64,000 bases of DNA, taken from contig NZ_CP049863.1 of the NCBI RefSeq assembly GCF_011299575.1, positions 1,612,001 through 1,676,000 of the forward strand, given 5' to 3'. This document shows, in pieces, positions 1 through 26,784 of the stretch; the first letter of the stretch is position 1, and the number at the start of each line of letters is the position of its first letter. The DNA comes from Leucobacter viscericola (GTDB taxonomy: Bacteria > Actinomycetota > Actinomycetes > Actinomycetales > Microbacteriaceae). The notes below the pieces were generated by a model, which saw only the letters and a program-made list of their open reading frames with translations, ran no database searches and was not told the origin of the DNA. Position numbers and translations under genes: made by a program.

Positions 1-1818
1 TTTGTCGGCAGCGGGGTCAGGTTTCCTGAGGGGCGCATCTTCGAAGACGTTGCAACCACACCGATTCTCTTCGACAAGGCCTCCTCGTTTGATGTGTTCG
101 CAGATGCGGGGTACTTCTGGCGCAGAACCCCCGGCAGCATCACTCAGACGCTCAGCTCAGCCAAGGCTCACGATCGATTGTGGGCACTTTCGCATATTCA
201 GGAGCACTTCACGGCGCGCGGATCCTCACCCCGTTTGAACGAGGAGCTGGGGTTTGCGATCGTTGACTACAACCTGCGGCGCATATTTTTTGAGTACCCG
301 AAGCACGACGCTGAGACACAGCGTTACATCGCTGAAGAAGTACACAAGATACTAGGACCCGTGTCAGATGAGGCGATTGCGCGAGTGCAGTCCCCTATCG
401 CTGAGTGGGCAATGGTGGCAAAGCATGGCGATGCGGTTGCCCTTGAACAAGCCCTGCAGGCGCCTTCCGGCGCTAAGCCACACCGTCGGGCGCTTCGCTG
501 GCCAACGACGAAGCGCAGCCTTCGAAATCTGATGGTGTATCTGGTGCTCCGACCAGCACTATTTGCGCTCCCGGTGATGAAAAAGACGGCGGTGTTTTCG
601 TCCTACTGGGGAAAGAACTTCTCGCCGTCGTTTGGCCCACCTGCCATCTGTCTCGAGCTGAATCGACAGAATCCGCAGTTTCAGAGCGTGGTATTTGCGG
701 CGGGCGCGGAATATGAGCGCATCCAAACCGAGGTTTCTCGACTGGCCGACCACCCAGACCGGATCCGAGTCGTGCGCAACACCAGCCTCGCGTATTACTA
801 CTACCTGTGGAGAGCGAAGTACCTCTTTAACGACGTGAACTTTCAGCTTGGGTACGGGGCTCAACGGTTTACACAAAAGCGGCGCGGCCAGATTGAGGTG
901 CAGGTCACCCACGGCATTCCCATTAAAAAAATGGGCCTCGATTCGGAGCATGCGATCTCGGCAAAAGGGCGAGCCACTTTTCTTGCACGCACCAGGCGCT
1001 ACGACTACCTCGTCTCAACGAGTCCGTTCGTCGCTGAAACATTCATGAAGTCACACGCGGTGAACGCGCAGGTTCTTGCGACCGGTCTACCGCAGCACGA
1101 TGCGCTCGTGACGCCCCCTCCGGGTGATCAGTCGGCCACGATACGGCAACGGTACGGGCTCGACCCCAAGAAAAGGATCGTGCTGTACGCGCCAACGTTT
1201 CGCAACAAAAAGGGCTCGCGGTTTCCCTGCCTACTCGATGTGCGGGAGATGCAGCGGCAGTTGGGTGATGAGTACCAGCTCGTCATGAAGGTGCACCCCT
1301 TCAACCACACTCAGATGGCCCTGATCGACTTTCAAGAGCTGACCGATTTCGCGCAGGATCCCGCTCCCTCCCCATTTGTGAAGCTCATGGGAGAGGTTCG
1401 TGTTAATCCCGCGTACAGTCCCGCGACGTTGGACCCCGAGGCCTCGCGATCCCGAGCCAATGTTCACAAAATCGGCGGCTCCGTCAACGAACTGATGTCG
1501 GTATCAGACGTGGTGATCTCGGACTACTCATCTCTCATGTTTGGCTACACGCACCTTCGCAAACCGCTGGTGCTGTTTACGCCCGACATCGAGTACTACA
1601 ACGCAACCCGCGGCAGCTACTTCAACGTCGACGAGGTCGCGCCCGGAGCGGTCGCCAAGACGACCACAGAACTCATTGATGCCATTCGACTGAGCTCCGA
1701 CCGTGCGTCCTGGATTGAGCGCTACGACGCTAAGCGCCGAAACTTCGTGGAGCGCTTCCTGTGCTGGGAGCAGGGTGATGCTTCGCGGAAGATTCTTGAG
1801 GAGCTTGGGCTTCTCTAG
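1..1818 (+). CDS. GT2 / CDP-glycerol glycerophosphotransferase fusion (5' partial)
   Basis: The reading frame is open from the first base, so the start lies upstream of the window; 605 residues are visible. Residues 1 to about 110 look like the tail of a GT-A (GT2) domain, with FPEGRIFEDV followed by a YFWRRTPGSIT segment. The rest is a Glyphos_transf (TagB/TagF-type) domain with VLYAPTFR near residue 394, KVHPFNH near 425 and ISDYSSLMFGY near 507. Enzymes of this family transfer glycerol-phosphate or ribitol-phosphate from CDP-alditols onto a growing wall polymer at the cytoplasmic membrane. The fusion suggests alternating sugar and polyol-phosphate addition. It converges on the SLH-protease gene and shares stop-codon bases with it. 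Family assignment is strong; the substrate is unknown. Confidence 0.87.
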   Translation, partial: FVGSGVRFPEGRIFEDVATTPILFDKASSFDVFADAGYFWRRTPGSITQTLSSAKAHDRLWALSHIQEHFTARGSSPRLNEELGFAIVDYNLRRIFFEYPKHDAETQRYIAEEVHKILGPVSDEAIARVQSPIAEWAMVAKHGDAVALEQALQAPSGAKPHRRALRWPTTKRSLRNLMVYLVLRPALFALPVMKKTAVFSSYWGKNFSPSFGPPAICLELNRQNPQFQSVVFAAGAEYERIQTEVSRLADHPDRIRVVRNTSLAYYYYLWRAKYLFNDVNFQLGYGAQRFTQKRRGQIEVQVTHGIPIKKMGLDSEHAISAKGRATFLARTRRYDYLVSTSPFVAETFMKSHAVNAQVLATGLPQHDALVTPPPGDQSATIRQRYGLDPKKRIVLYAPTFRNKKGSRFPCLLDVREMQRQLGDEYQLVMKVHPFNHTQMALIDFQELTDFAQDPAPSPFVKLMGEVRVNPAYSPATLDPEASRSRANVHKIGGSVNELMSVSDVVISDYSSLMFGYTHLRKPLVLFTPDIEYYNATRGSYFNVDEVAPGAVAKTTTELIDAIRLSSDRASWIERYDAKRRNFVERFLCWEQGDASRKILEELGLL

Positions 1819-4466
1819 CCCACGGCTTCGACAAAATTCCTAGAATCCAATTTGGGAAGGTCAGACGGGATCTGAGACTCTGACGCGCTAGATGCAGGAG
1901 CCGTACCACCGCCGTAGAGAGGCAGCCACGCCCCCCAGTCTTTGAGCAGTTGGTCCATCGGCAAATAACAGCCATGTCCGGTTGCGGGCTCATACGCGAC
2001 CATCATTCCCACTGCTCGGACCACCCCATTTTCTGATCGCCAAACAGGCCCGCCGCTATCACCTGGGCGAGTTTGCGCCGTCGAGCAGATTGCAGTGCGT
2101 CCGTACCAAGAAATCTCGCCTGTGATTTTCCCTTCGGTCCATCCAGAAGTGGCACCCATCTTTCCGACCAGGAAGCCTTCAACTTGTCGCGAGCTCGACA
2201 CAACACCCTTAATTTGGCCATTCGTTCCGGGGTACTGCTTTCCCACTGGATCGATCACGATTTGAGGCAACGTTACGCCAGCATATGCAGACATCAATAG
2301 CGAATCGCTCCCATCCGTTGGCTTCTTCGCAGCAACTTTTGCGAAAGGGGCCTGAGTTCCGGAAACTATCTGACCGGTGTTTCCGCAGTGTCCTGCAGTC
2401 ATGATGAAAGTTCCTGAAGTTCCGGCCACGACATAACCACCGGTACATTTGCGACCTGGAAAATTGGTGACGTGGCCCGACAAATAATTGTATTTCAGTG
2501 CATCAGGCTCAGCTCTTACGCGGTAGAGGAACACCGCTGTCGCCTCACGGGTCACCAAGTTTTTGGGCTCGAACAGTGGCTTGCCGCTCGGCTGCTTCGT
2601 ACCGTTCGAAATACCGCTTGAGTGCATCCAAGCAATTTGCTTGTAGAAGGTGTCCGTGGTCTTCACATCCGCAAATGGTGAAACCGCGGGTGCGGGTGCG
2701 GTCGCTTTTTCGGAGCGATACATGAAGGCGGCCATGGCCTCTCGGCTGATGCTGTCGCTGGGCAAAAACAGGGGTTTCTTGCCTGGGCCCTGACTGGTGC
2801 CAGTAGAGATGCCTTCTTTATGCATCCATGCGATCTCGTTATAGAACTTGTCCCCCGGTTGCACGTCCGCAAACGGCGAGGAACTAGGACCTGTGTAGCT
2901 TGCCTTTTTCGCGCGGTACATGAACGCAGCAATCGCCACTCGACTGGTGTTTACTTTCGGCTCAAAGGAGCCGTCCGCGTTTCCGGTGGTAATGCCTGCG
3001 TCCTTCATCCACTTGATCTCTTTGAAGAACCCATAACTTTCAGGCACATCATAGAAGTTAGGACCACGATATACATTGTTCGACTGGGTTATTGGAGCGA
3101 TCCGCGCTGTTTTCCCCTGCTGCGCAACGCGCATTGGAACGATGTCCTCAACATAGGAGCTATTGTCTTTGATAGAGACACCGGAGACCAGAGGGGCAGA
3201 ACCTGCCGCGTTTCCAACGACGCTGATATTAACGAAACTGTTTGACGGTTTCATGCCGTAGAACTTGTTGCCGGAGATATTCACTCCCTTCGTGAGCTTT
3301 TTCTCGGTTACTAGCTGAATCCAAACACCGATTCTTTCGTTAGCACGAAAAGTGTTGCCAGTAACTGTAAGGCCGGCAACAGGACTAAAGTGAAGCGCTC
3401 CATCGTAGGCCGTGCCGCCAACAGGGACCGGGTCGATCACCACATTATTTCTGAAGACGATATTTATCGCTTCGTTAGAAGAACCAGCAAAGTGTTGCCC
3501 TATCGGACTTTGGGCCCACGAAATCACTTTTCCTGAACCGTCACGCGCGGCTTCGAATGTGGAGTTTTCCACCGTAACATTCGTGCTGTGTCGATCAGGC
3601 AAAAAGTAGTTGCCCCCAGCACGCTTTTTAAACAGTCTGTCTAGCCCATAGTTCCAAGCGTTCCCACCGGAGCCTTCTGCGTGTCGGTCGATCTGCACGG
3701 CTTCCGCATAGCGCGCGTGATCCGTCAGTCCCGTAAAATCGGTCCCAGAGCCGTAGCCGATCACCCGTATGTTGTTGATCCTGATGCTATCCGAAGCCAT
3801 CACATCAAAAACGTGTGTTCTAAAGGCCACCGCTCGATCAAATTTCATATCAGTGAATGCAGCATTTTTGACTTGCATAAGGGCGAAGTGGACGCTCCCG
3901 CCAGAACCTCCTGCAGTAAAGGTTCCACCAGTCCATTTCAGGCCCTGACCGAGAGCCGATCCAAATGTCGCCTGGCCCGTAAAGGTAGCCCCAGTGGCGA
4001 TGACCGTTACATTGCTGGCGTATGGCAGTTCAATTACGTCTCCAGTGAGGTTATAGGTCCTTGCAGGCACTGTAATGGTGGCCCCCGCCTGCGCCGAAGC
4101 AAATAGATCCCCCAGGTATTTCAGATCACTGACCGCCTCGGCGGATGCAGTCGGCAGGGGTTCTTCCACCGCCGGTTGAACTGGCTCAGGTTCGCTCGCG
4201 GATTTAGCGGACAGGCTCTCGTCAGATATCTCAGTATTAGATAATTCAGGTTCTGCGTCCTGCCCGGATTCCTCAACTTGGTCTTCAACGAACAAATCTG
4301 ATTCCGGCGGCTGCGGGTCGGCAAGTGCCGGGTTGGGTGTCCCCACTACAACCATAGCTGCGGCCAAGAACGCAATTAACGACACCTTAAGACCTTTGGA
4401 CGAGCTCTTCCTTCGCACTGGCCTGACATTGATCACGCGGACCAAACCGAGACTCGAATTCTCCAT
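1815..4466 (-). CDS. Secreted beta-helix / SLH x3 / trypsin-like serine protease
   Basis: The 883-residue product has a signal peptide (hydrophobic stretch about 27-45, likely cut after PALA near 49) and an acidic linker. A right-handed parallel beta-helix-like region follows (about 115-460, with recurrent asparagine-containing turns such as VTVENSTF, IVFRNNVV and LTVTGNTF). Three SLH-type repeats occupy about 470-650 (FYDVPESYGFFKEIKWM, FADVQPGDKFYNEIAWM, FADVKTTDTFYKQIAWM, each ending near AxFMYR or AVFLYR). The C-terminus (about 660-855) is a chymotrypsin-fold protease with TAGHCG (His693), D721 in the SDSLLM segment and RPGDSGGPV (Ser804). The start is supported by AGGAGAGG upstream of ATG. 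SLH repeats normally bind wall polymer, so this should be a surface-anchored protease. The beta-helix may bind or cleave carbohydrate. Target unknown. Confidence 0.86.
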   Translation of the reverse strand: MENSSLGLVRVINVRPVRRKSSSKGLKVSLIAFLAAAMVVVGTPNPALADPQPPESDLFVEDQVEESGQDAEPELSNTEISDESLSAKSASEPEPVQPAVEEPLPTASAEAVSDLKYLGDLFASAQAGATITVPARTYNLTGDVIELPYASNVTVIATGATFTGQATFGSALGQGLKWTGGTFTAGGSGGSVHFALMQVKNAAFTDMKFDRAVAFRTHVFDVMASDSIRINNIRVIGYGSGTDFTGLTDHARYAEAVQIDRHAEGSGGNAWNYGLDRLFKKRAGGNYFLPDRHSTNVTVENSTFEAARDGSGKVISWAQSPIGQHFAGSSNEAINIVFRNNVVIDPVPVGGTAYDGALHFSPVAGLTVTGNTFRANERIGVWIQLVTEKKLTKGVNISGNKFYGMKPSNSFVNISVVGNAAGSAPLVSGVSIKDNSSYVEDIVPMRVAQQGKTARIAPITQSNNVYRGPNFYDVPESYGFFKEIKWMKDAGITTGNADGSFEPKVNTSRVAIAAFMYRAKKASYTGPSSSPFADVQPGDKFYNEIAWMHKEGISTGTSQGPGKKPLFLPSDSISREAMAAFMYRSEKATAPAPAVSPFADVKTTDTFYKQIAWMHSSGISNGTKQPSGKPLFEPKNLVTREATAVFLYRVRAEPDALKYNYLSGHVTNFPGRKCTGGYVVAGTSGTFIMTAGHCGNTGQIVSGTQAPFAKVAAKKPTDGSDSLLMSAYAGVTLPQIVIDPVGKQYPGTNGQIKGVVSSSRQVEGFLVGKMGATSGWTEGKITGEISWYGRTAICSTAQTRPGDSGGPVWRSENGVVRAVGMMVAYEPATGHGCYLPMDQLLKDWGAWLPLYGGGTAPASSASESQIPSDLPKLDSRNFVEAVG

Positions 4467-4504
4467 TGACCTCTCCTAAAAAGAAGGATTTCCTAATTTA
4501 AAGA

Positions 4505-4532
4505 AGAGTATCACTTCATTGCAAATTAACAA
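4505..4532 (-). promoter_or_regulatory. Candidate promoter of the SLH-protease gene
   Basis: On the minus strand TTGTTA (4527-4532) and TACTCT (4505-4510) are separated by 16 bp. They sit in an unusually AT-rich spacer about 40 bp upstream of the ATG at 4466. The -35 match is partial, so this is only a candidate. Confidence 0.35.
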
Positions 4533-4550
4533 GAAAGTCGAATTGTTAAA

Positions 4551-4570
4551 GCAGAAATCGGCTTTTCTGC
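4551..4570 (-). terminator. Weak hairpin after the 897-residue glycosyltransferase gene
   Basis: GCAGAAA (4551-4557) and TTTCTGC (4564-4570) form a 7-bp stem with a 6-base loop. On the minus strand it is followed by TTTAACAATT rather than a clean T-run. It lies between two minus-strand genes and could attenuate read-through. Confidence 0.3.
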
Positions 4571-4714
4571 AACATTGATACTTGCAAGATTCATTACATC
4601 GCTTCGAACGCCGACCTGAGGCCTCGACTAGCTACAACACCTTCGAAAACGCCTTATGAGTTGCGCGTACCGACAGTTGATCGGTCCAGGCACCTCAGGA
4701 AAAGGCTCTAGGCA

Positions 4715-7408
4715 CTAGACGAGCAGTCCTCTCCTGCGCTGGTCAACATTCAAAGCAGCCTCAATAACACGCTGACTGTTCTTTTGGTCACGATGCAAAA
4801 AGACGCCGTCCAAGCGGCTCAAATATTTCTCTTCCATCTTGAAGCCGCCGTCAATCATCGCCAAGATCTCACGCTTGAGCTCGATAAAGTCGTCCACCAC
4901 AGCACCAGGGGCCGAGGAAGCATAATCGAAGACTCCCTCACCATAGTGATGGGTGCGGAACTCCTCCTGATCCGAATGATCAAGGATGACTGGCTTCCCC
5001 ATGTAAGCGAAATCAAAGAACACGCTCGAGTAATCCGTAATCATCGCCACACTCGAGTTCAATGCGTCTCGATACTTCACAGATCCGGGCCGATGCACTC
5101 GCACCCGATCAGACACAAGCGCGTTGTAATTATCTACGTATGCCGCCATACCCGGGTGCAAAAGCATGTCGATTGAAGCATCTGCAGCCCTCAACGCCTC
5201 AAGGATTTCTGGATCAGAAAGCAACTGCCGCTGCTGCTGGAAGTAAAGGCTCTCCTCGAAGTCATCAATGACCTCATGGCTGCCATCAGGCATGATTCGA
5301 CCTGTGAGCCATGTTCTCCACGTCGGAGCGTAGAGAATACTTCTCTTCTTGCTACCGGCGGATTGATCTTCAAGCAGATCAAAGCGAGAAAAGCCCGTGC
5401 CCAGTACGGTTTCTTCGTCATAAAGCAGACCTTCGCGCAAGGCAAAATGCTCCTCGTGCGCGGTGCCAACTACAACGGCATCAATACTCAGTGGGAGCCG
5501 GTTGAACGTACTCCCAACGTCGTTCATCGTCACACCGTGTTGCAACCAAACAAGCGTTCGATCGAAGAGATCCGCGATCTCCGCGTGCACACGCTTGCCC
5601 CATGGCGACATGAGAGTTGGGGACAAGTGAGAGGTCAGCAGGATTCTGCAATTCACAAAAAGCAGGCGATGCCGAAAGGAGCCGGGTTTCACAATACGCT
5701 TGGTTCGCTTTAGCTCGTTGTACCCCGGTGCCGTTTTGGCGAGAACTAACCAAGTATCGTTCTTCAGATCGGGGCGAGATTCCTGTACGTACCGGAAGAG
5801 CGCTTCGCCATTATCGTCACCGAATCCAGGGCGATCTGTAATCAGAATCGTTCGCTTCTGGGGCTTCGAAAACAGGCGTACTGGAACGAATCGTTTCTCT
5901 TTCCAGAGCAGACGCAAAGTGCTTCTAAGGTTATAGAGTCCTACCTTTGTGTGAGCACGATTTATCCAAAACTCATTACTCTCGGGCAGAAAGCGCATCC
6001 AATACGTCTCTGAAATGCTCTTTCGCGTCGGGTCATATCCACGGAAAGGGCTTTCTCCCCACTGCTTTACATCTGCAACGAAGTGAAGTTCACCAGTTGC
6101 AGTCAGTCGAAACGCGAATCTCCAGCGAGACTCTCGCGACGGGGCCGGGAGAAGGAACTTACGATACTGAGTCTCCGTTGCAATAAACTCACCATCGCGC
6201 TTCGAGAACTCGTTCTTCCCTGAGAACCCTCCGCTGGCCTCAAGAACGTCCCCCGTATCTGAAACCATTACAAGATCAAAGCCGGAGATGAAGTAGTTGA
6301 AGAAGACAGCCTCAATCTCGGCAGCCTCAGGGCGCTTATTGATGCGTCTTACTTGAACAGGGATGGTATCGAGGTGAAACAGCTCATTTTCTCGGTCAAA
6401 AACCATCCCGTCGGCGCCCAGCTGCCAAGGCTGGTCTCGCGTCATGGCCGAGGAAAACATGAAGTGTCTGACCATACTGGTGACCCACGGTGAAGTCTTG
6501 AGGGTCTCTGGGTCGAGGTAGTCAATGAACTCTCGGTAGCTTGCGACTAAGGCTTCATACTCTTCGTCGCTCTCAAAATACTTGCGCCGCATCCTTCCGA
6601 TACGTTGCCTGAGTTCATAAATGATCAGTTCCTTGAGATACCGGGGAGCTTCTTCACCTACGGGTGGGAGAAGCCTTGAGAGCAAGGTAACTGCACTCTG
6701 AAATCCGCTAGCCGTACGAACACTTCTTGCAACTTGATTTGCCCCCGCCACGTGCTGTGTGTATTCGTACTGGACACCTTGCTCACACACGTAGCCGAAG
6801 CGCGGCCCAAACCGAGCAAGAAGCTCAAAGTTAAACAGAGAGTCCTCCGCAGAGAGCATGGAACTATCAAACTTAGCCCCCTCGATATTCTCACGGGGAT
6901 AGAAACTCGCGGCAGAAGACAAGACAAAGTTGCCGGGCTCTTCCAGCAGATCGATTACAGCGTTCTTTTCGGGGAAAAATTCGTACTTTCCATGGCGTCC
7001 ATTCTTCGCGCCGGTCAGCTCAAGCGGGATAGTAATGAACGGCAAGCCCTCGGACGAGTGCCGCTGCCAAAAATCCCAAACTTCCGAAAACACGTTTGGC
7101 GCAAGAAAGTCATCAGGGTCAAAGAAATTCACCAGTTGACCAGTTGCGGCAGCCATGCCCGCGTTTCGAGCGGCAGAAAGCCCCTGATTTGCTTGATCAA
7201 TAACGACAACGTTGTTCGGGTACTTTTCCCTGAAGATCTCGCACTTGCGAAGGCTGCCATCCACACTGCCGTCATTTACGAGAATCAGCTCAATGTGCTC
7301 TTCAAACCCCAAATCCTGCGAGATGATGCTTTCAATGGCCTGATCCATCCATGGTTCTTGGTTGTAGATGCTCATCACAACCGAAAAACGTGGTTGGCCC
7401 GCAGTCAT
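4715..7408 (-). CDS. Bifunctional GT2 glycosyltransferase / CDP-glycerol glycerophosphotransferase
   Basis: This 897-residue cytoplasmic or membrane-peripheral enzyme has an N-terminal GT-A domain (FSVVMSIYNQ at 8-17, NDGSVDGS near 45-52, the DPDD metal-binding motif at 97-100). A middle region of unclear fold follows, then a C-terminal Glyphos_transf domain from about 520 (LQHGVT, ILYAPTWR at 691-698, a LLHPG motif, ITDYSS near 790). The same architecture occurs in the partial gene at 1-1818, so the two are probably successive polymerases or primases of one teichoic-acid-like polymer. AAGGGTGA precedes the ATG. The added sugar and polyol cannot be read from sequence. Confidence 0.88.
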   Translation of the reverse strand: MTAGQPRFSVVMSIYNQEPWMDQAIESIISQDLGFEEHIELILVNDGSVDGSLRKCEIFREKYPNNVVVIDQANQGLSAARNAGMAAATGQLVNFFDPDDFLAPNVFSEVWDFWQRHSSEGLPFITIPLELTGAKNGRHGKYEFFPEKNAVIDLLEEPGNFVLSSAASFYPRENIEGAKFDSSMLSAEDSLFNFELLARFGPRFGYVCEQGVQYEYTQHVAGANQVARSVRTASGFQSAVTLLSRLLPPVGEEAPRYLKELIIYELRQRIGRMRRKYFESDEEYEALVASYREFIDYLDPETLKTSPWVTSMVRHFMFSSAMTRDQPWQLGADGMVFDRENELFHLDTIPVQVRRINKRPEAAEIEAVFFNYFISGFDLVMVSDTGDVLEASGGFSGKNEFSKRDGEFIATETQYRKFLLPAPSRESRWRFAFRLTATGELHFVADVKQWGESPFRGYDPTRKSISETYWMRFLPESNEFWINRAHTKVGLYNLRSTLRLLWKEKRFVPVRLFSKPQKRTILITDRPGFGDDNGEALFRYVQESRPDLKNDTWLVLAKTAPGYNELKRTKRIVKPGSFRHRLLFVNCRILLTSHLSPTLMSPWGKRVHAEIADLFDRTLVWLQHGVTMNDVGSTFNRLPLSIDAVVVGTAHEEHFALREGLLYDEETVLGTGFSRFDLLEDQSAGSKKRSILYAPTWRTWLTGRIMPDGSHEVIDDFEESLYFQQQRQLLSDPEILEALRAADASIDMLLHPGMAAYVDNYNALVSDRVRVHRPGSVKYRDALNSSVAMITDYSSVFFDFAYMGKPVILDHSDQEEFRTHHYGEGVFDYASSAPGAVVDDFIELKREILAMIDGGFKMEEKYLSRLDGVFLHRDQKNSQRVIEAALNVDQRRRGLLV

Positions 7409-7667
7409 AAATCACCCTTCGTAACAAACGCTTCAAGCTTTTTCTCGGCGCTCTCAATGCAGGCGCAAATGCACACAAAAGCTCAGCGCGAATACTTTGG
7501 AACAATTTACCACCAGGTAAGTCCCTGAAACTAAGCCTACCCAATACTCTTGCTTTGAGGGATTGGCGTGTCAGCGATCAAGCAAGAAGACCGCTTTGCT
7601 ACCCTGGAAATTTGTGGATCAAGCGAACCAACAGCAAGCTTGAAGCTCGAGCGAGAGAGACTCACCT

Positions 7668-9095: not shown

Positions 9096-9104
9096 TTTAG
9101 CGAC

Positions 9105-9899: not shown

Positions 9900-9925
9900 C
9901 CTAAAGTTCATATAGGTGTTGCGCA

Positions 9926-15944: not shown

Positions 15945-15954
15945 AGGTTACAGC

Positions 15955-18900: not shown

Positions 18901-19455
18901 TGTGCACTGCCGGTAGGCGAAGTTCCACTCGTCCCAGATGTAGGCGCCATTGGGGTATGGCCAGGGCAGGTTTCTGTATTTCGCCGGGTAGTTGTCACCG
19001 ATGATGGATCCACGCAGCTCGCTGGCCATGGCCCGGCTCGACAAACCACCGAGCACCTGGTCATCGGGCGCTTCCTCTGCTGGTCGCGCAGACGCCGGCC
19101 CTGGTGAGTTCGACGCGAGCCCACCATTGGGTCCGCGGGGTTCGTCTCCCTCGGGTGTGGGCTCGGGAGCGGGCGTGGTCGGCGGCGTCGGCTCAGCAGT
19201 TGGCGGATCCGTCGGCTCAGTCGTCGGAGGTGCTACTGGCGGATCAGTCGGCTCGGGATCGCCAGCGCCCGGATCCTGTGTCACATTCGACGGCTCCGTG
19301 CCGGTACCCGGATCCTGATCATTATTCAGCGAATTCAGGATCGCGGGCGACTCGGCTGCGGCCTCGGTTGTTGCGCCGAGAGGCACCACAAATAGCGACG
19401 ACACCAGCGCTGTTGCAAGCGCCACCGTCACTACCGATCGACCAAAGCCTGACAT
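15955..19455 (-). CDS. Secreted CHAP / FG-GAP propeller / Ig-like / SLH x3 protein
   Basis: From the ATG at 19455 (GGGGGAG upstream) the product is 1,166 residues. In order: signal peptide; Pro/Thr-rich linker; CHAP domain (Cys184 in RQCTSFVAW, His251 in EFGHVAWV); Ig-like module (about 305-390); seven FG-GAP/VCBS units, each with a calcium-binding D(V/I)NGDGxxDxVGF motif (about 405-785), which should close as a seven-bladed propeller; two further Ig-like modules (about 795-970); three SLH-type repeats (about 978-1160). The parts suggest a wall-anchored peptidoglycan hydrolase with a ligand-binding propeller. It heads an apparent two-gene unit with the lysozyme-like SLH gene. Confidence 0.87.
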   Translation of the reverse strand: MSGFGRSVVTVALATALVSSLFVVPLGATTEAAAESPAILNSLNNDQDPGTGTEPSNVTQDPGAGDPEPTDPPVAPPTTEPTDPPTAEPTPPTTPAPEPTPEGDEPRGPNGGLASNSPGPASARPAEEAPDDQVLGGLSSRAMASELRGSIIGDNYPAKYRNLPWPYPNGAYIWDEWNFAYRQCTSFVAWRLNSANGVPFSNQYLGLTRWGDAGQWADSARAVGVRVDSTPEVGAVAWSGPWYKGASEFGHVAWVAQVLDSGQIVIEEYNNGWAGAYGTRTIWPGDFQGYIHIKDLANSFVKTTTPTISGAAVVGSKLTANLAGWTPAVTGLRYQWQRNGVAIAGATASTYTPTMTDRAQTITVAVTGSRAGYRAETKVSAATSAVLMIDSDGDGLDDTTEMLPWNSDVNGDGLPDVVGFGVDGVQVALNTKTGLGPMKQWVAGFGANNGWSPLRNPRTLVDVNGDGKSDVVGFANSGVYVATSTGSGFAAPKRWGEGFGVDLGWQVDKHPRTLADINGDGLPDIVGFGETGVYVALNTGSGFGPEQKWSNEFGATAGWRVDRHPRYLIDVNGDGKLDIVGFSNSGVSVALSTGKSFAAPKQWSTGFGYNSGWRMESHPRMLADVNGDGLPDVVGFKDDGVYAAINTGSGFKAPVRWSDNFGTAKGWQTGQHPRVLADVNGDGRADIVGFGESGVMVALSTGAKFGAGTWWSSEFGALNNGKPNWQLDRHPRMVTDVNGDGRADIVGFGNGGVRIAYNTGSKFAAATSPLNNLGYTAGGWRVDSHPRSMNIQTLSSRPVPGVTGSVRVGQQISGAAGSWQPRPVKLKMQWYRDGKVVSGATSTNYAITPDDLGTKLSFGVTGSKLGYAASQQRSKEFVVAPGVLQAPTPTIEGQLRAGSVLQTKVGNWGPAPVQLKYQWNRNGSPIQGATSASYKLSSADAGRRLTVTVTGSKAAYDTASRTSAHVKLKGAPPAPAKSPFIDVPVTHKFYRQIAWMHQTGLSTGTRTPQGAVYGPKTAVSREAMAAFLYRLDALKTWKPPAASPFIDVPANYGFYRQIAWMGETGLSTGTRTAAGARYDPKTPVSREAMAAFLYRLEAPKGYTPPKTSPFADVPTNHRFYREISWMYSSGLSTGTRQPHGKPVYSPKDPVSREAMAAFLYRMETNG

Positions 19456-19491
19456 GACTCCCCCAGAGTTCCTAACGTTCAACGATCCGGT

Positions 19492-20346
19492 TTATCGATC
19501 CCCGGGCAGCCCCCGCCCGATGAACCCGCGGAAAAGCACACGTTTCACACCCGCGGGCATTAAACGGTACGCCCCTTTCATGAGAACGTTGCGCGCGTAC
19601 TGCGCACGGGTCACAAACCCCATCCGAAGCAGTTCACGCTGCAGTTTCCACTCGGTGCGAGCCTCGGCCCAGCCACCGCGGCGAACAAAGGCACCGGATC
19701 CCACCCGATAGCTCAGCAGCGGTTCCGCAATGTTCTCGACCCTCGCTCCATCAGCGATGAGCTGCACCCCCAGCCAGTAGTCCTCCATCTTGCCAAAGGG
19801 CTGGTAACGCCCGACGCGGTCGAGCGCGGCGAGACGGTACATCATCGTGGGGTGATTGAAAGGGTTGTGGGTACGCGCGTGGTCCCTGATGCGCTCCGGC
19901 CCGACGGGCGGAACACGAATCGCGCTCGGAGAGGCTGGGTCCTGTTCAAACTCCTGCATACCCGTGCCGACCAGGTCGTACCCCTGCTCGATCATCTCCC
20001 ACTGCCGTGCAAAGCGTTCGGGGCTTGAGACGTCGTCCGCGTCCATGCGGGCGACAACGGGGTAGGTGCACGCATCGAGACCCGCGTTCAGAGCCTCAGT
20101 GAGGCCCCGGTTCTCAGATAGACGGATCAGCCGCACCGGAATGGGGCTCTCGGCTTCGATACGCTCGAGCTCCGCGGCGAGCGCCTCCGGAACCGGGCCA
20201 TCCTGCACAATCACGGCCTCGGCCGGTTTCAGCGTCTGCTGATCCACCGAACTCTCGAAGGCAAGACGCAGATACTCGGCATTATCGCCAGCGTATACGG
20301 GCAGCAGGAGGGAGAAGTTCGCCTGGGGTGTTTGTGATGCAGGCAT
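19492..20346 (-). CDS. GT2 family glycosyltransferase (AmsE-like)
   Basis: The 284-residue enzyme opens with FSLLLPVYAGDNAEYL and carries VQDGPVPE, LSENRGLTEALNAGL and the metal-binding ARMDADDVSSPERF segment, all typical of GT-A glycosyltransferases that add sugars to surface polysaccharides. No transmembrane segment is evident. It lies between the SLH surface proteins and a second GT2 gene on the same strand. Donor and acceptor sugars are unknown. Confidence 0.84.
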   Translation of the reverse strand: MPASQTPQANFSLLLPVYAGDNAEYLRLAFESSVDQQTLKPAEAVIVQDGPVPEALAAELERIEAESPIPVRLIRLSENRGLTEALNAGLDACTYPVVARMDADDVSSPERFARQWEMIEQGYDLVGTGMQEFEQDPASPSAIRVPPVGPERIRDHARTHNPFNHPTMMYRLAALDRVGRYQPFGKMEDYWLGVQLIADGARVENIAEPLLSYRVGSGAFVRRGGWAEARTEWKLQRELLRMGFVTRAQYARNVLMKGAYRLMPAGVKRVLFRGFIGRGLPGDR

Positions 20347-20379: not shown

Positions 20380-21357
20380 CTACCTTGCGTCGAGCTTCGA
20401 CAGGCGTTCGATCTCGTACATGACATCAACGGGCACACCCGCGTCACGCAGCACGTCACGCGTCAGCCGCGGAGAAGTACGCCAGCCATCACGCCAGCCC
20501 CGCTTCAGGCAGTCCCGCAGCTGGGCCCGGTCTTCCGACGCGCGGAAGGTGCGAATCCAACGCCTCGCGGTGGCGGCGGAGTACAGCAGTTTCTCCCACC
20601 CCTGCAGTGCACGACTGCAGCGGAACACCCAGAGTTTATTGCGCACCTCATAAAAGAAACGGGGACCAGGATCCTGGTCGCTTGAGCCGCGTTTCACCGT
20701 CTTGTGAGTGACGACCGACCCGGGTACGTACAGACCACGGGCACCCCGCAGCAGGCGGGCGGAGTATTCAAAGTCGTCGTTCCACAGGAAGTAGTCGGCG
20801 AGAGGCAGGCCGAGTTCGCGCACCCGCGGTGCCCTCAGAAACGCCGAAACAAAGGAGATCGAACGAATCTCCATGCCACCAGCTTGGGCGGCACGACGGC
20901 GTTCGCGTTCACCAGCACGAATCTTCGCTTTGGGCGTGTTCATGGGGTGATCTTGCTCGTCGGTCCAGATGACCCGAGACCCCATGACGGCCAGGTCGTC
21001 TTGCCCCGTGCTGCGATAGCGCTTGTGCGCTTCAAGTGCTCCCGAGAGTGCGTCGGGGCCGGGAACGGTGTCATCGTCCATCACCCAGACCCAGTCGATC
21101 CCGTCTTCGGCAACGGCCGCGGCTATCCCTACCGCAAACCCACCGGCACCGCCGGTATTCTCGGTTAACTGGATAAAGCGTGCGCGCTCGCCCCACTCCT
21201 CAAGCAGGTGCTCGGCTTCTTCGCCGATTCCGCCGTCAGACGCGTTATCGACCACCACCAAACGGTCAACCGGTCTGCTCTGTGCGGCGAGCGCACGCAG
21301 CGACTCTTGCAGCAGTTCTCGCCGGTTGTACGCCACCAATACGGCGGTTACGCGCAT
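20380..21357 (-). CDS. GT2 family glycosyltransferase (rhamnosyl/galactofuranosyl-transferase-like)
   Basis: The 325-residue product has AVLVAYNRRELLQESL, VVDNASDGG and WVMDDDTVPGPDAL, the DDD motif of GlfT-like and rhamnosyltransferase-like GT2 enzymes. FLWNDDFEYSARLL supplies the downstream catalytic acid region. GGGAGAG sits 8-14 bases before the ATG. A galE gene is nearby, so galactose or galactofuranose transfer is possible, but no mutase gene (glf) is in the window. The specific sugar is not established. Confidence 0.84.
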   Translation of the reverse strand: MRVTAVLVAYNRRELLQESLRALAAQSRPVDRLVVVDNASDGGIGEEAEHLLEEWGERARFIQLTENTGGAGGFAVGIAAAVAEDGIDWVWVMDDDTVPGPDALSGALEAHKRYRSTGQDDLAVMGSRVIWTDEQDHPMNTPKAKIRAGERERRRAAQAGGMEIRSISFVSAFLRAPRVRELGLPLADYFLWNDDFEYSARLLRGARGLYVPGSVVTHKTVKRGSSDQDPGPRFFYEVRNKLWVFRCSRALQGWEKLLYSAATARRWIRTFRASEDRAQLRDCLKRGWRDGWRTSPRLTRDVLRDAGVPVDVMYEIERLSKLDAR

Positions 21358-21442: not shown

Positions 21443-23077
21443 TCAACCCGCGGCGGTAACCTGCGACCCGTGCGCCCACATCTTGGCGTAGAAGCTCACC
21501 GAGCGGGACTTCACCACGTCAAGGTATTCGTCTGAGTCAAGATCCAGAATCGATCCTGCCGGCACATCTTGTTCCTTCACAAGCGCGGAAACCCCTATGC
21601 CTGCTCGGTGATCCTTGATGTTGAGGCCAACAAGCTCCAGAAGCGTTGGATACATGCTGAGCTGGTCGATTTCTTCGCGCGCGAACTTCACGCCTCCTGG
21701 AACCCACACTCGATTGAAAATGGTGCGGTCATCCCGGTCCTTCAGCTCGTCCCAGTAGGTGCCACCCTCAACGTTCATCTTCCGATGATCGCCCATGACA
21801 ACAACGGTGGTGTCGTCCAGGTATCCCTGCTTGTCCATGTAGCCAACAAACCCCGCCACCTGCTCCATGGAACAGAAGGTAATCGAGGTGAGTTCCTTTT
21901 TGGTGTCTACATCGCAGTAGTCGAAGACGTGTATCGGTTCGTGACTGTCAAGCGTCAGCATTGTGAGGTTGAAGGGATCGCCAGCGTCGTGCAGCTCCTT
22001 CACCTTTTCTTTTGCGTGCTCGAACAGGCGACGATCGGAGAGCCCCCATTCTGCGCGGGTTTCTGTCTCTCCCTCGCTCACCCAATCTTCCAGGCCGTAG
22101 ACCTCGTCGTAACCGTGACCGGATAGGAACTGATCCTTGCCAGCGAAGCTTGCGTTCGCTCCCCCGAGAAAAACGTTGTGGTATCCCTCGTCCTTCAGCA
22201 CGTCTCCCAGGCAGTCGGCACCTGGAAGGAAGCGATCAAGCTGGTGATCCTGATCGCCGAGAAGGTTCAGGTCATCGTTATCCGCGTTTGAGGTCGCGGT
22301 GCGCAGCGGGATCCCGCACTGCGTTCCCACGATCCCTGCCATCGTCCAGCCGCCACCCTCGTAGGTGTCTAGCTTTGGAACAGTCGCCCAACCAGATGTC
22401 GCCGTCTGAACGGGGGCAAGCATGTTCTTCTCAAACACCTTGTCGTCAGTGAAGGTGTCTTCGATGGACTCAAGATAGATCAGCACGAGATTGTTCTTGC
22501 CTTTTGCGGCGCCAGAACCAGAATCACCTTTCGCGCCGACGCTCACAACTGAGCCGCCATCGGAGTGACCCGGCTCTACCTTCGGAGCTTTGTAGAAATC
22601 GGCGAGTGTCGTTCCCAGCGTTTTCTCTCGAATTGAGGCCTGTATGTAGTCGACCGCGCCAATCGTGTCCCCGAACAATGTCGCACCGCCCAGAGGCAGA
22701 ATGACGGCGAGCGCAATGGCAACACCTCTAAACAACCGGGTTCGCAGGGTGGTGAACCACGCCTTGGAACGCAGGCCGCGCCGCAGCATTTCGACAACGA
22801 CAGCCAATGCGAGTGTGATGGCCACGGGAACCACAATGATGGCCGCAACCGCTCCAGCAACGAGCGCATCTCCGCCCGCACCCTCACCACCGCCGTTCAT
22901 GTTGCTTAGCAGCTGATCAACGGAGATGACACCAAAGGTACGCCGCACCCAGAGTGCCGCTCCGGTAAAAATGGTGCCAACAGCAACGAGCACCCAGAAT
23001 CCAACGATTCCGGCAGCCCACAGCCTACGTTTCGGGCTGACCGACTCTGCAGTCAATTCTTCTTCCACCTTTATCAC
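21443..23077 (-). CDS. MdoB/LtaS-like membrane phosphoglycerol transferase (sulfatase fold)
   Basis: The 544-residue product has three transmembrane helices (about 21-43, 71-96, 114-137) followed by an extracellular sulfatase-fold domain. Expected active-site elements are YLESIEDTF (Glu203), EGGGWTMAGIVGTQCG (probable nucleophile Thr245) and VVVMGDHRKMN (metal-binding Asp/His). This family moves phosphoglycerol from phosphatidylglycerol onto glycolipids, glucans or wall polymers outside the membrane. It begins 20 bp after the LCP gene stop, so the two are likely co-transcribed. It resembles E. coli OpgB more than a classical LtaS. The acceptor is unknown. Confidence 0.83.
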   Translation of the reverse strand: MIKVEEELTAESVSPKRRLWAAGIVGFWVLVAVGTIFTGAALWVRRTFGVISVDQLLSNMNGGGEGAGGDALVAGAVAAIIVVPVAITLALAVVVEMLRRGLRSKAWFTTLRTRLFRGVAIALAVILPLGGATLFGDTIGAVDYIQASIREKTLGTTLADFYKAPKVEPGHSDGGSVVSVGAKGDSGSGAAKGKNNLVLIYLESIEDTFTDDKVFEKNMLAPVQTATSGWATVPKLDTYEGGGWTMAGIVGTQCGIPLRTATSNADNDDLNLLGDQDHQLDRFLPGADCLGDVLKDEGYHNVFLGGANASFAGKDQFLSGHGYDEVYGLEDWVSEGETETRAEWGLSDRRLFEHAKEKVKELHDAGDPFNLTMLTLDSHEPIHVFDYCDVDTKKELTSITFCSMEQVAGFVGYMDKQGYLDDTTVVVMGDHRKMNVEGGTYWDELKDRDDRTIFNRVWVPGGVKFAREEIDQLSMYPTLLELVGLNIKDHRAGIGVSALVKEQDVPAGSILDLDSDEYLDVVKSRSVSFYAKMWAHGSQVTAAG

Positions 23078-23097: not shown

Positions 23098-24507
23098 CTA
23101 CTCCGAGTCTTTCTTGGGAGGAGAGGCCTGTGCGATTCCGTCAGCCGTGAGCTGCCTGATCACGTCAAAGTCCGGCGCATCGGGCTCGACCGCTGGCGGA
23201 ACTAGCTCGACGTTCACGATGTCGTGTTCGCGGGACTTGCTAGCAAGATCTACGAACCTGCCCAGCATCGATTCGGGAATATCGGTCTCAATGAGCTGAG
23301 TTCCCGCAGCCGCAATACCCTGGAACTTAAGAAGCACGTTCGTGGGGTTCATCTGGGAGAGGATCGCGGCCTGCAGCTCGCGCTGTCGCTGCATGCGATC
23401 GTAGTCGCCACCGCTCGAGCCGTATCGCGACCGCGCATACCACTGCGCTTGGAATCCGTTGAGGTGCTGCTTACCTGGTTCGATCCAGCCATCCTCGTTC
23501 ACCACTTCACCACTATACGGATCGACCCCGCCACCAATGGGCAGTCGTTCTTTGACGTCCATGGTGACCCCACCGAGCGCGTCAATCAGATCAGCAAAGC
23601 CGTCCATGTTGAGCAGCACGTAGAACTGAATCTTGAGCCCCAAAGCACCCTCAACGGCCTCACGGGTCGCCTCGATGCCTGGCGAGGAGTCGTGTTTTTT
23701 GGCGTTCGGGTAGAGCTCGGGGTAGAACAGCTCTGCCTCAGCGTAGATACCGTTCAAGATGCAACGACCGACCTGGCAGCCGCCGTAGTCGCCAAACTCG
23801 TTCGGGCCAACGCCGAACCCGTTCGGATGCATTTCGGCCATGGGTGATCCCTCGGCGAATGGCGTGCCTTCAAGCTCACGAGGCACGCCAATAATGGCGG
23901 CCTGCCCTGTCTCGGCATCAACACTAATGACGGAGATGCTGTCGGGGCGCAGCCCCTCACGATCCGCTCCAGCATCGGTGCCCAGCAGCAAGAAGTTATA
24001 GCGCCCGTCGACCGGCGCAACAGCGGGGGCACTGCCAAAAATGTCGCTGAGCGCACCGCGACCGGCCGCGACCGATGTTCCGGCCCAGGCGGCACCAACC
24101 GCGGGAACAAGCGTCAGGATCACGGAGAGAATGGCAACCGGCATTTTCCAGTTGGGCTGCACCCGTCGAAGCCGCGTGAGACCCAGGGTGTTGAGCCCAA
24201 GAAGCACCCACAGCACGGCATAGGCAAATAGCGCCCACTGCAGAATGAGCAGCACCCAACTGTTCGTAAAAATGGTGAGTGTTGCGACTCGCGCGAACAT
24301 CAGCCCCAGAATCGAGGCGATACCCACCACGAGCAGAACGATCGTGGCGGTCAACCCGAAACGCCCGAGCTTGCGGTTACCCGAGAGCAGCTGCGCGCTT
24401 CCGGGCAACAAAAACCCGAGCACAACAAGCCAGCGCGCTCGCTTGCTCATGAGCGGCGGCGAGTTTAAGTCTGGGTTACGAAGCGGCCGCTCAAGATCAA
24501 GAGTCAC
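23098..24507 (-). CDS. LytR-CpsA-Psr (LCP) family wall-polymer ligase
   Basis: The start is taken as the GTG at 24507, whose GTGA overlaps the galE stop and implies translational coupling; this gives 469 residues. Several hydrophobic segments (about 20-130) precede the LCP domain. That domain has FLLLGTDAGADREGLRPDS, DAETGQAAIIGVPRE and a late YARSRYGSSGGDYDRMQRQ with the conserved Arg/Asp residues that bind pyrophosphate-polyprenyl lipid. LCP enzymes attach teichoic acids or arabinogalactan to peptidoglycan. The location between galE and a phosphoglycerol transferase fits that final step. Confidence 0.88.
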   Translation of the reverse strand: MTLDLERPLRNPDLNSPPLMSKRARWLVVLGFLLPGSAQLLSGNRKLGRFGLTATIVLLVVGIASILGLMFARVATLTIFTNSWVLLILQWALFAYAVLWVLLGLNTLGLTRLRRVQPNWKMPVAILSVILTLVPAVGAAWAGTSVAAGRGALSDIFGSAPAVAPVDGRYNFLLLGTDAGADREGLRPDSISVISVDAETGQAAIIGVPRELEGTPFAEGSPMAEMHPNGFGVGPNEFGDYGGCQVGRCILNGIYAEAELFYPELYPNAKKHDSSPGIEATREAVEGALGLKIQFYVLLNMDGFADLIDALGGVTMDVKERLPIGGGVDPYSGEVVNEDGWIEPGKQHLNGFQAQWYARSRYGSSGGDYDRMQRQRELQAAILSQMNPTNVLLKFQGIAAAGTQLIETDIPESMLGRFVDLASKSREHDIVNVELVPPAVEPDAPDFDVIRQLTADGIAQASPPKKDSE

Positions 24508-25517
24508 GCGGTATAACCTCCCGGATTCGACGACTGCCAGGCCCAGGAGTCGCGGCAGGCCTCTGCGAGTGATCGTGAGGTGCGCCAATTCAGTTCGCGG
24601 TTTGCCTTCTCAGGATTCGCGACGACCTCTGCAACATCACCCGGACGCGCGTCGACGACAGCGTAGGGAATTGGCTGGCCCGAAGCCTGCTCAAACGCAC
24701 GCACCACTTCAAGCACACTCGAGCCCGTGCCAGAACCAAGGTTGTAGCTGGCCACACCAACGGCGGAATTGTTCAGTGCGGCAACGTGCCCTTCGGCAAG
24801 GTCCATCACGTGAATGTAGTCACGCACGCCGGTGCCATCGGGGGTCGGATAGGTGTCGCCGAAGACGCTCAGCTCTTTCCGTTTACCAACGGCAACCTGG
24901 GCAATAAAGGGCATGAGGTTGTTCGGGATCCCTGAGGGATCCTCACCGATGCGCCCTGAGGGGTGCGCCCCCACCGGGTTGAAGTAGCGCAGCAGAACGG
25001 CCTCAAGCTCGGGCCAGGCAAGCTGCGTGTCGCGAATAATCTGCTCGTTCATAAACTTCGACCAGCCGTAGGGGTTAGTCAGGCCAACACCGACACGATG
25101 CAGCTCATCTTGGGGAACGTATTCGGGGTCACCGTAGACCGTCGCGGAAGAGCTGAAGACAAGTTTTGTCACGCCCCGGTCGCGCATAATGTCGAGCAGC
25201 GCAAGGGTGGAATCGATATTGACGCGATAGTACTTCGTGGGCATGGCGACCGACTCGCCAACTGACTTGAGCCCCGCGAGGTGGATCACGGCGTCAAACT
25301 CAACATCTTTGAGGGCCTCAGCTGCGCGTTCGCGATCCGCGAGGTCGACCTCGATAAGCGCGACACTCCGACCGCTCAGTTTTTCCACGCGGCGTACCGC
25401 CTCGGGGTTGCTGTTCGAGAAGTCATCGAGAATAACAACGTCGTGTCCCTGGTCCAAGAGCACGAGGGCGGTGTGGGAGCCGATGTATCCGGCTCCACCT
25501 GTAAGCAATACACGCAT
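24504..25517 (-). CDS. galE: UDP-glucose 4-epimerase
   Basis: The 337-residue SDR-family enzyme interconverts UDP-glucose and UDP-galactose. MRVLLTGGAGYIGSHT is the NAD-binding Gly-rich loop, ATVYGDPE supplies the Ser/Thr region and NPYGWSKF the catalytic YxxxK. The ATG at 25517 is preferred to an in-frame ATG 17 codons upstream because the family begins with this motif. A -10-like TACGCT sits 7 bases before it with no ribosome-binding site, suggesting a leaderless message. It heads a unit with the LCP gene and probably the phosphoglycerol transferase, supplying UDP-Gal for the wall polymer. Confidence 0.95.
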   Translation of the reverse strand: MRVLLTGGAGYIGSHTALVLLDQGHDVVILDDFSNSNPEAVRRVEKLSGRSVALIEVDLADRERAAEALKDVEFDAVIHLAGLKSVGESVAMPTKYYRVNIDSTLALLDIMRDRGVTKLVFSSSATVYGDPEYVPQDELHRVGVGLTNPYGWSKFMNEQIIRDTQLAWPELEAVLLRYFNPVGAHPSGRIGEDPSGIPNNLMPFIAQVAVGKRKELSVFGDTYPTPDGTGVRDYIHVMDLAEGHVAALNNSAVGVASYNLGSGTGSSVLEVVRAFEQASGQPIPYAVVDARPGDVAEVVANPEKANRELNWRTSRSLAEACRDSWAWQSSNPGGYTA

Positions 25518-25524
25518 GGGTACC

Positions 25525-25530
25525 AGCGTA
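25525..25530 (-). promoter_or_regulatory. Leaderless -10 element of galE
   Basis: TACGCT lies exactly 7 bases upstream of the galE ATG on the minus strand and no Shine-Dalgarno sequence is visible. No good -35 was found, so this is a moderate-to-weak call. Confidence 0.4.
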
Positions 25531-25686
25531 CTTTGTTTGAGCCGTGGACTCCCCGAATGCTTGGGCAATCGTCACATTTCTATTTCGTCCTTGACTTCGC
25601 AGGGCATAAGTTCAGGCTTTGCACACTCTGACTCATAGAATGATCTGGGACCGTTCTAGAGTACGAATTATCGATGGGAGAAGTAC

Positions 25687-26784
25687 GTGGCAACACTCAC
25701 TCTCATCGCAGAACCTTTCCCCGACTGGGAAGCGCCGGTACATGCCGCAGCTGCGAGAGATCTCATGGGAGCTTTGGCAACCACGGCACCGCGCAGTTGC
25801 AGTACCCGGTATCTGATGGCCAAGGGATCAACCGATCCTCACTTCACGTCACCGCTTATTCGCTCTGAATATCTACCGTTCCGATCGACCATGCTGCCGC
25901 TGCTGTGGCAAAACGGCGCAACGGCCAGGCCGCTCGACGGTGAGTTTGTGCACTCCATCACGCCGATGGTTCCGCTGCGCTCCCACGGCGACGACGACGG
26001 AACCCAAACCTCGGTCACCATTACCCACAGCATCGCCTGGGACGCCCCGGCGATCCTCGGCAACTCTCAGGCCCGCCTGTACCGCGCTTTCGTGCGGCGA
26101 GCCGTAAAGCTGGCGGACGTACTTTTCACCCCCACCCACGCAACCGCTCGGGTGCTGCAGGAGCAGTTTGGTTCCGACCTTCCGGTTCAGGTTTTGCAGC
26201 TTGGGGCACCCTCGGAGTACCTGCGCCCGGACGACGCGATCGAGCGCCGTGCCGCTCTCGGGGTACCCGATCACTACGCGGTCACAACCGCCACCTCAAG
26301 CGAAGACGGCCGCCTCAGCTGGATTATTGATGCGCTGCGCGCCGATCCCGCGCTCCCCAGCGTGGTGGTGCTCGAGGGGCTGGATCCGGCCGCGAGTGCA
26401 ACCGAACAGCCAAGCATCCCCGAGGAGCTTCAGCACCGCGTGGTTTTCGTGACACCTCGTGACCTCACGGACGTTGGCGCAGTGCTGAGCGGTGCTTCGC
26501 TTCTGCTGCAGCCACAGGCCTACGTCGGCACGGGCTATACCCTGCTCGGCGCACTCACCGGATCTGTTCCGGTGCTGCACTCGGGTCACCCGGCCGCAGA
26601 AGAACTCGTGCTTGATGCGGGCCTGGCAGCAACCTCGGCGGGAGAATTTGCGGCCGAGTTCAGCAGACTGTTCCGTGACCCCAACTCGCTCACCAAGCTG
26701 GCGGTTCTCGCCCGCGACCGTAGCCGCGGCTTCGGTTGGAACGGTGCGGCCTGGCAGCTCTGGGAAGCCCACGCCAACATGTAG
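25687..26784 (+). CDS. GT-B-fold glycosyltransferase
   Basis: The 365-residue protein starts at GTG. It has the overall layout of a GT1/GT4 enzyme: an N-terminal Rossmann half (TLIAEPFPDWEAPVHAAAARDL), HSIAWDAPAIL, a VLFTPTHATARVL segment and a C-terminal nucleotide-sugar half with YVGTGYTLLGALTGSVPVLHS followed by HPAAEELV. The usual E-x7-E signature is only partly recognisable. It is divergent from galE and belongs by position to the polysaccharide locus. Substrate unknown. Confidence 0.68.
   Translation: MATLTLIAEPFPDWEAPVHAAAARDLMGALATTAPRSCSTRYLMAKGSTDPHFTSPLIRSEYLPFRSTMLPLLWQNGATARPLDGEFVHSITPMVPLRSHGDDDGTQTSVTITHSIAWDAPAILGNSQARLYRAFVRRAVKLADVLFTPTHATARVLQEQFGSDLPVQVLQLGAPSEYLRPDDAIERRAALGVPDHYAVTTATSSEDGRLSWIIDALRADPALPSVVVLEGLDPAASATEQPSIPEELQHRVVFVTPRDLTDVGAVLSGASLLLQPQAYVGTGYTLLGALTGSVPVLHSGHPAAEELVLDAGLAATSAGEFAAEFSRLFRDPNSLTKLAVLARDRSRGFGWNGAAWQLWEAHANM

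Follow-up and report, generated by a model that had tools for sequence, protein, structure and literature searches.

The first 27 kb of a 64,000-nucleotide stretch of the Leucobacter viscericola chromosome (hereafter the window, G000:C1:1612001-1676000 of the single-contig genome G000, 3,697,133 bases; NCBI RefSeq GCF_011299575.1, contig NZ_CP049863.1) appears to belong to a locus that spans some 42 kb (about 1596.6-1638.8 kb of G000:C1) and in which wall-polymer genes stand among genes for SLH proteins. Our analyses of gene content and sequence conservation make it probable that SLH proteins in this organism are anchored, in a CsaB-dependent manner, to a pyruvylated and probably teichoic-acid-like polymer, the sugar of which would not be N-acetylmannosamine (ManNAc). 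The principle of csaB-dependent SLH anchoring is already known. In particular, the passages we cite from PMC6801904, PMC6081394 and PMC5817068 describe how, in Firmicutes, SLH proteins such as Sap of Bacillus anthracis and SpaA and SlhA of Paenibacillus alvei are anchored via CsaB to a pyruvylated secondary cell wall polymer, and a passage of the first reports that SLH proteins are not retained by B. anthracis csaB mutants. New here are the extension of this principle to Micrococcales, at loci with CDP-glycerol transferases, a clade of CsaB-like proteins of about 500 residues, an SLH subtype lacking the tryptophan at position 13 (SLH-Trp13), and a swap of anchor modules on a shared wall protein. 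In open-licence literature (subscription journals were mostly outside the scope of the search) we found no csaB-SLH tie in Micrococcales.

That no csaB-like pyruvyltransferase is present in the window, as the sequence-only reading had remarked, is true but is an edge effect. A search of the whole genome for csaB returned a single PF04230 polysaccharide pyruvyltransferase gene, the open reading frame (ORF) at G000:C1:1607429-1608952, which lies 3.0 kb before the window opens at 1612001. A GT2 glycosyltransferase gene precedes this csaB-like gene, and two polymerases in which a GT2 domain is fused to a CDP-glycerol-transferase domain (Glyphos_transf, hereafter Glyphos) follow it on the same strand, a Glyphos gene being about 1.2 kb away. 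The NCBIfam model nearest to the csaB-like protein is CsaB itself (TIGR03609; 3.7e-16), and its closest named relatives come from Leucobacter. The AlphaFold model of the protein is confident (mean pLDDT 92) and GT-B-like; comparison of this model with known structures returned general GT-B folds only, and there was no PDB sequence match either.

We compared the distributions of SLH and PF04230 at three taxonomic depths. SLH triples, detected with a profile built from the four SLH proteins of the window (profile A1), were found in 21 of 54 genomes of the genus, 13 of which had five or more reported matches and are here called SLH-rich. PF04230 was present in 13 of 13 SLH-rich genomes versus 9 of the other 41 (Fisher 4.5e-7, relatedness ignored). 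Co-occurrence of SLH genes with the polymerases, the comparison by which the sequence-only reading had proposed to judge the tie between them, was uninformative: because nearly every genome of the genus (53 of 54) has PF04464 polymerases, their co-occurrence with SLH cannot discriminate, and we discarded it as evidence. It is csaB, and not the fusion polymerases, that co-varies with SLH in the genus. Among 248 genomes of the order, for which the counts rest on listed candidates, 56 were SLH-positive; PF04230 was found in 51 of these 56 versus 109 of the 192 SLH-negative genomes, and in all 27 of the SLH-rich ones, which come from nine families. Since the base rate is this high, presence of PF04230 is by itself weak evidence at the level of the order, and we therefore analysed clade membership and the distance between csaB and SLH genes. 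At the level of the class (296 genomes, searched with PF00395), eight genomes were SLH-positive; the five with at least nine matches have PF04230, and the three with one or two matches do not.

A tree built quickly from 61 PF04230 rows (19 submitted loci gave no row, and 10 weaker matches from the genus were left out) grouped the SLH-linked csaB genes of five families (f1, f2, f7, f50 and f53) in a single 33-row clade (SH-aLRT 98), the proteins of which are about 500 residues long. Two of the 33 rows come from SLH-negative genomes, and the Leucobacter rows of the SLH-free genomes G329, G335, G344 and G346 lie outside the clade. When the 248 genomes of the order were searched with an alignment of homologues of the G000 csaB (A3), at least 26 genomes gave matches with E values of 2e-35 or lower, and the next match stood at 6e-13; tallied by hand, clade matches occur in at least 16 of the 27 SLH-rich, at least 5 of the 29 SLH-poor and at least 5 of the 192 SLH-negative genomes. 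Because many of the regions inspected earlier had been picked for visible csaB-SLH closeness, the linkage count took all 26 clade-positive genomes. In 15 of the 21 genomes positive for both clade and SLH, an SLH sequence lay no more than 10 kb from the csaB match, with a gap of less than 160 bases in eight. Random placement of SLH genes would give 2.2 such genomes, or 2.6 with larger SLH numbers for most genomes, and under either null 0 of 1,000,000 simulations reached 15. The genomes without such closeness were G373, G420 (region cut by a contig end), G458 (14.8 kb), G460, G510 (10.1 kb) and G520. The genes that surround csaB and SLH differ among the five families. Of 57 named csaB loci, 28 have a Glyphos gene within 10 kb of csaB and 10 have an SLH gene within that distance; the corresponding counts were 10 and 6 of 10 loci in Leucobacter, 8 and 1 of 9 in Demequina, and 2 and 0 of 12 in Brevibacterium. 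SLH genes close to csaB were also seen in Aeromicrobium piscarium (L304) and Sinomonas susongensis (L320).

The SLH repeats themselves retain some of the residues that matter in Firmicutes and have lost another. According to the cited part of PMC6081394, Trp13, Gly29 and Arg43 help P. alvei SpaA to bind its pyruvylated ligand. With the register taken from an alignment to Sap, SLH-Gly29 and SLH-Arg43 are each present in 119 of 119 G000 repeats (two short rows of 121 were dropped). Unlike in the Firmicutes type, where it stacks on the sugar, SLH-Trp13 is present in none of the 119, its position being occupied by Lys in 76 and Ser in 21; the residue after it is Phe in 117 of 119, and a different tryptophan, seven residues on, is invariant. 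SLH-Trp13 was likewise found in 0 of 170 repeats from the other loci examined, and among 83 repeats of f2, f7, f50 and f53 it was absent, with Gly29 in 83, Arg43 in 82 (one gap) and the later tryptophan in 77. The fold appears to be conserved as well: profile A1 matches the SLH domain of Sap in the PDB (1.3e-8), and in the AlphaFold model of the protein encoded at 14193-15944 the SLH part is confident and has as its 15 best PDB matches only Sap or SpaA SLH structures, several of which are complexes with pyruvylated ligands. A search for UDP-N-acetylglucosamine 2-epimerase (PF02350) gave no match in the G000 genome, whereas 11 of 14 control genomes matched. These findings suggest that the contact to the pyruvate has been kept and the contact to the sugar changed, with no known route to UDP-ManNAc seen, and because SLH-Trp13 is absent and no epimerase was found, the ligand sugar is probably one other than ManNAc. 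Galactose or N-acetylgalactosamine (GalNAc) is our guess, made because a galE gene lies in the locus and because pyruvylated GalNAc occurs in teichoic acids of Brevibacterium and Nocardiopsis.

Further evidence comes from the N-terminal domain of the protein encoded at 14193-15944, which we call P583N and which is present in 51 of the 54 genomes of the genus. In 11 of these genomes, all of them PF04230-positive and SLH-rich, P583N carries C-terminal SLH repeats; in the other 40 no SLH was found on the P583N orthologue. Pfam searches of 34 of those 40 (six cut or fragmentary sequences were excluded) identified LGFP repeats on 31, CWB2 on 4 and SLH on none. LGFP and CWB2 thus occupy the place that SLH holds in 14193-15944, although they are repeat families unrelated to SLH, and precomputed Pfam labels of named P583N homologues agree with this swap. 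Anchor type changes twice on the tree of the P583N domain. The gene order csaB, GT2-Glyphos fusion, P583N with SLH, CHAP with SLH is preserved in several Leucobacter species. The P583N domain (residues about 131-395) has no Pfam family, many invariant cysteines and a conserved Lys-Glu-Gln, and no hydrolase fold was supported for it by a structure search of the AlphaFold model.

Gene content of positions 1-26,784 of the window, typed by Pfam and NCBIfam profile searches, is as follows.

1-1818, + strand: C-terminal part of a 799-residue GT2-Glyphos_transf fusion, the start of which lies 581 bases upstream of the window (Pfam)
1815-4466, - strand: secreted-type protein with a beta-helix-like part (below the Pfam cut-off), three internal SLH repeats and then chymotrypsin-like motifs read by eye (Pfam)
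4715-7408, - strand: GT2-Glyphos_transf fusion (Pfam)
7668-9095, + strand: 475-residue protein without a Pfam family, hydrophobic by eye; membrane glycosyltransferase is a guess
9105-9935, - strand: GT2 glycosyltransferase (Pfam)
9961-10458, + strand: GtrA-family membrane protein (Pfam)
10611-12659, + strand: GH43 protein with three C-terminal SLH repeats (Pfam)
12638-14101, - strand: CHAP protein without SLH (Pfam)
14193-15944, - strand: P583N protein, with an N-terminal domain without a Pfam family and three C-terminal SLH repeats
15955-19482, - strand: CHAP and FG-GAP protein with three C-terminal SLH repeats
19492-20346, - strand: GT2 glycosyltransferase
20380-21357, - strand: GT2 glycosyltransferase
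21443-23077, - strand: MdoB/LtaS-like phosphoglycerol transferase of the sulfatase fold family (Pfam, NCBIfam)
23098-24588, - strand: LCP-family ligase (Pfam, NCBIfam)
24504-25568, - strand: galE, UDP-glucose 4-epimerase (NCBIfam)
25687-26784, + strand: GT1-type glycosyltransferase, weak, below the Pfam cut-off

The profile searches bore out the wall-polymer genes that the sequence-only reading had named, namely an MdoB-like transferase, an LCP ligase, galE and several glycosyltransferases. The protein of 21443-23077 resembles MdoB phosphoglycerol transferase I (1.1e-50) at a score below the equivalog cut-off, that of 24504-25568 passes the galE equivalog cut-off, and NCBIfam identifies 23098-24588 as LCP. 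Its two GT2-CDP-glycerol-transferase fusions are both genuine, with the difference that one of them begins outside the window: ORF 94-1818 by itself matches Glyphos_transf only, and it is assigned to a fusion because its frame opens upstream, at G000:C1:1611419, to give a 799-residue ORF of which the first 194 codons are GT2 (2.3e-35). Two further GT2-Glyphos_transf fusions lie upstream of the window, at G000:C1:1598719-1601385 and 1609036-1611480. Farther upstream of csaB are two genes without a family, an ABC-2 exporter pair, a third fusion, an acyltransferase gene and a LicD/methyltransferase-like gene. A Glyphos_transf polymerase, an exporter pair of ABC-2 type and an LCP ligase, as used to make wall teichoic acid, are all present. 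The ATPase of the exporter pair (L011:7444-8685, - strand) bears an LGFP repeat at its C terminus, and this is the module found in place of SLH on P583N orthologues of other species. Outside these genes, the window contains a cluster at 33427-49046 that encodes an FHA protein, a PP2C-like phosphatase, a transglutaminase, a DUF58 protein, a MoxR-type AAA protein, a 2053-residue Big_9/fn3 protein and a Ser/Thr kinase. At window positions 2001-10000 the G+C content drops to 0.52-0.54, most of the remaining window being at 0.58-0.65, which would fit an acquired segment.

Each of the four SLH proteins of the window (1815-4466, 10611-12659, 14193-15944 and 15955-19482, all of secreted type) has three SLH repeats, the Pfam match for 15955-19482 being marginal (20.1 bits versus a cut-off of 20.8). 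The sequence-only reading had placed the repeats at the end of all four, which holds for three of them; in 1815-4466 they are internal (residues 471-651 of 883) and are followed by the motifs TAGHC and GDSGGP. As for the enzymes to which these repeats had been assigned, GH43 and CHAP are supported by Pfam, and a protease is suggested by those eye-read motifs; no Pfam protease family reached E 0.001 in 1815-4466. A lysozyme-like activity for 14193-15944 was not established: no catalytic Pfam or NCBIfam family matched, and goose lysozyme appeared in a structure search with the model at a probability of 0.14. The neighbouring CHAP proteins 12638-14101 and 15955-19482 have N-terminal parts that are closely similar by eye, with SLH on the latter only.

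A search for further SLH proteins across G000 gave 41 SLH ORFs, which we count as 40 genes, since two ORFs at G000:C1:2866003-2870542 (L233) overlap in different frames, the second with an SLH triple, and seem to be a single broken SLH gene. Four of the 41 lie in a single 17.7-kb segment of the window, a clustering above chance, and most of the SLH genes are scattered around the chromosome. The idea that the locus encodes SLH clients thus applies to four proteins, with about 36 of the roughly 40 encoded elsewhere. For 30 of the other 37 SLH ORFs (L209-L237, L012), Pfam searches found six leucine-rich-repeat proteins, four RCC1 proteins and four reprolysin-like metalloproteases, as well as a second GH43, a rhamnosidase, an M1 peptidase, an HtaA haem-protein domain, an invasin-type domain and Ig-like domains.

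The system resembles that of Firmicutes in its SLH triples, with Arg43, Gly29 and the Sap/SpaA fold, and in having a PF04230 enzyme closest to CsaB. As in P. alvei, whose cluster is described in the cited part of PMC6801904 as comprising csaB, tagA, tagO and two SLH genes, csaB is linked to SLH genes in G000. It differs in the replacement of Trp13 by another invariant tryptophan, in a CsaB-like protein of about 500 residues that falls below the equivalog cut-off, in the lack of a detected UDP-N-acetylglucosamine 2-epimerase and in the CDP-glycerol-transferase fusions of the locus. Polymerase, exporter pair and ligase recall wall teichoic acid biosynthesis (TagF/TarL-type, TagGH-type and LCP proteins), to which the fusion of GT2 to the polymerases, the pyruvyltransferase and the SLH genes are additions. 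Passages of the review PMC6801904 place CsaB-like sequences chiefly in Firmicutes and Cyanobacteria, record pyruvylated teichoic acids in the actinobacteria Nocardiopsis and Brevibacterium iodinum (in strain VKM Ac-2106, with pyruvate on mannitol and GalNAc) and, as far as those passages go, assign the pyruvate no function. The csaB of B. iodinum ATCC 49514 is 37% identical to that of G000 over residues 2-408, and Glyphos genes lie beside csaB in several genera. Because a species with pyruvylated teichoic acids has a related csaB, a teichoic acid is a plausible, not a proven, acceptor, VKM Ac-2106 and ATCC 49514 being possibly different strains. Unlike in G000, no SLH match was found in 12 Brevibacterium csaB loci. 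In L303 (B. iodinum ATCC 49514, 8119-11563) the gene directly ahead of csaB encodes a chaperonin (Cpn60), and a 530-residue ORF, identified as Cpn60 in L303 only, precedes csaB in most of the Brevibacterium loci mapped.

From the families involved, the following pathway can be proposed. The GT2-Glyphos_transf fusions and GT2 enzymes would assemble, on a lipid carrier, a teichoic-acid-like chain of glycosylated polyol phosphate, and the CsaB-like enzyme would transfer ketal-pyruvate from phosphoenolpyruvate onto a sugar of the polymer. The ABC-2 pair would export the polymer and the LCP ligase would join it to peptidoglycan. The SLH triples, four encoded locally and about 36 elsewhere, would then bind the pyruvylated sugar via Arg43 and Gly29, as judged from Sap and SpaA and from the observed conservation. 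The proposal that one locus specifies both an SLH ligand and its clients draws support from the csaB-like neighbour of the window, the co-occurrence data, the linkage of csaB to SLH genes in several families and the anchor swap; of the clients, only four of about 40 are encoded here. In this view, the SLH ligand would be the locus's own polymer.

Several observations weigh against CsaB-dependent anchoring to such a polymer. The G000 pyruvyltransferase scores 59.3 bits versus the CsaB equivalog cut-off of 213.1, and is CsaB-like, not CsaB, by the equivalog rule. The genus counts are not independent and amount to about three events, since SLH-richness changes three times on the P583N domain tree, and an independent-pairs test in the genus had too few changes to reach significance. 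For the SLH-rich genomes G030, G086, G368 and G374, every PF04230 row examined falls outside the clade, and 11 of the 27 SLH-rich genomes of the order have no clade match among the matches listed. G296 and G316 are SLH-rich and PF04230-positive, yet have a non-SLH anchor on P583N, and csaB therefore does not force SLH. The csaB of B. iodinum has housekeeping genes as its neighbours and is not in a teichoic acid cluster. Other such points feed specific alternatives. CsaB-dependent SLH anchoring may be real and the acceptor another polymer, made for instance via the tandem Glyphos gene at a second Glyphos locus (G000:C1:587-589 kb), the polymer genes of the present locus merely sharing an island of surface functions. 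The existence of that locus and the near-universality of the polymerases in the genus are in keeping with this, as is the finding that in f2, f7 and f53 csaB adjoins SLH with no Glyphos gene in the stretch examined, which makes a teichoic-acid acceptor less likely in those families; but the presence of a Glyphos gene near csaB in every named Leucobacter locus, and its closeness in G000, lead us to regard this alternative as unlikely.

We consider it quite improbable that SLH binds a non-pyruvylated anionic polymer or peptidoglycan and that csaB modifies a polymer for some other purpose. Such an arrangement would fit the loss of SLH-Trp13, the five SLH-positive genomes of the order without PF04230 (G213, G257, G391, G497 and G533) and the csaB-clade genes in SLH-free genomes (at least five), but it sits poorly with invariant Arg43 and Gly29, with csaB-SLH linkage in five families and with the confinement of SLH-anchored P583N to PF04230-positive genomes. 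Horizontal co-transfer of polymer, csaB and SLH genes as a surface-gene island with no functional tie is very improbable indeed: the low G+C of 0.52-0.54 at 2-10 kb and the few independent origins within the genus would agree with it, but the closeness of csaB to SLH amid different neighbours in f1, f2, f7, f50 and f53, the anchor swap on P583N and the dispersal of most SLH genes over the chromosome all speak against it.

CsaB-dependent anchoring of SLH proteins, as favoured here for G000, raises the possibility of a wider pattern, which we put forward tentatively and hold to be somewhat more doubtful than probable. In Micrococcales, the SLH ligand would be a pyruvylated teichoic acid with a non-ManNAc sugar (galactose or GalNAc as a first guess), the CsaB-like clade and the SLH subtype with the new tryptophan in lieu of Trp13 would have co-evolved, and wall proteins would switch between SLH and LGFP or CWB2 anchors with the presence of the pyruvylated polymer. 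A wall protein that carries SLH in one species and LGFP in a related one amounts to a natural experiment on the exchange of surface anchors. If the proposed anchoring is correct, the ligand chemistry would differ from that of Bacillus, and the previously unexplained pyruvate of the wall would acquire a role, in SLH anchoring, with csaB as the gene on which that role could be tested.

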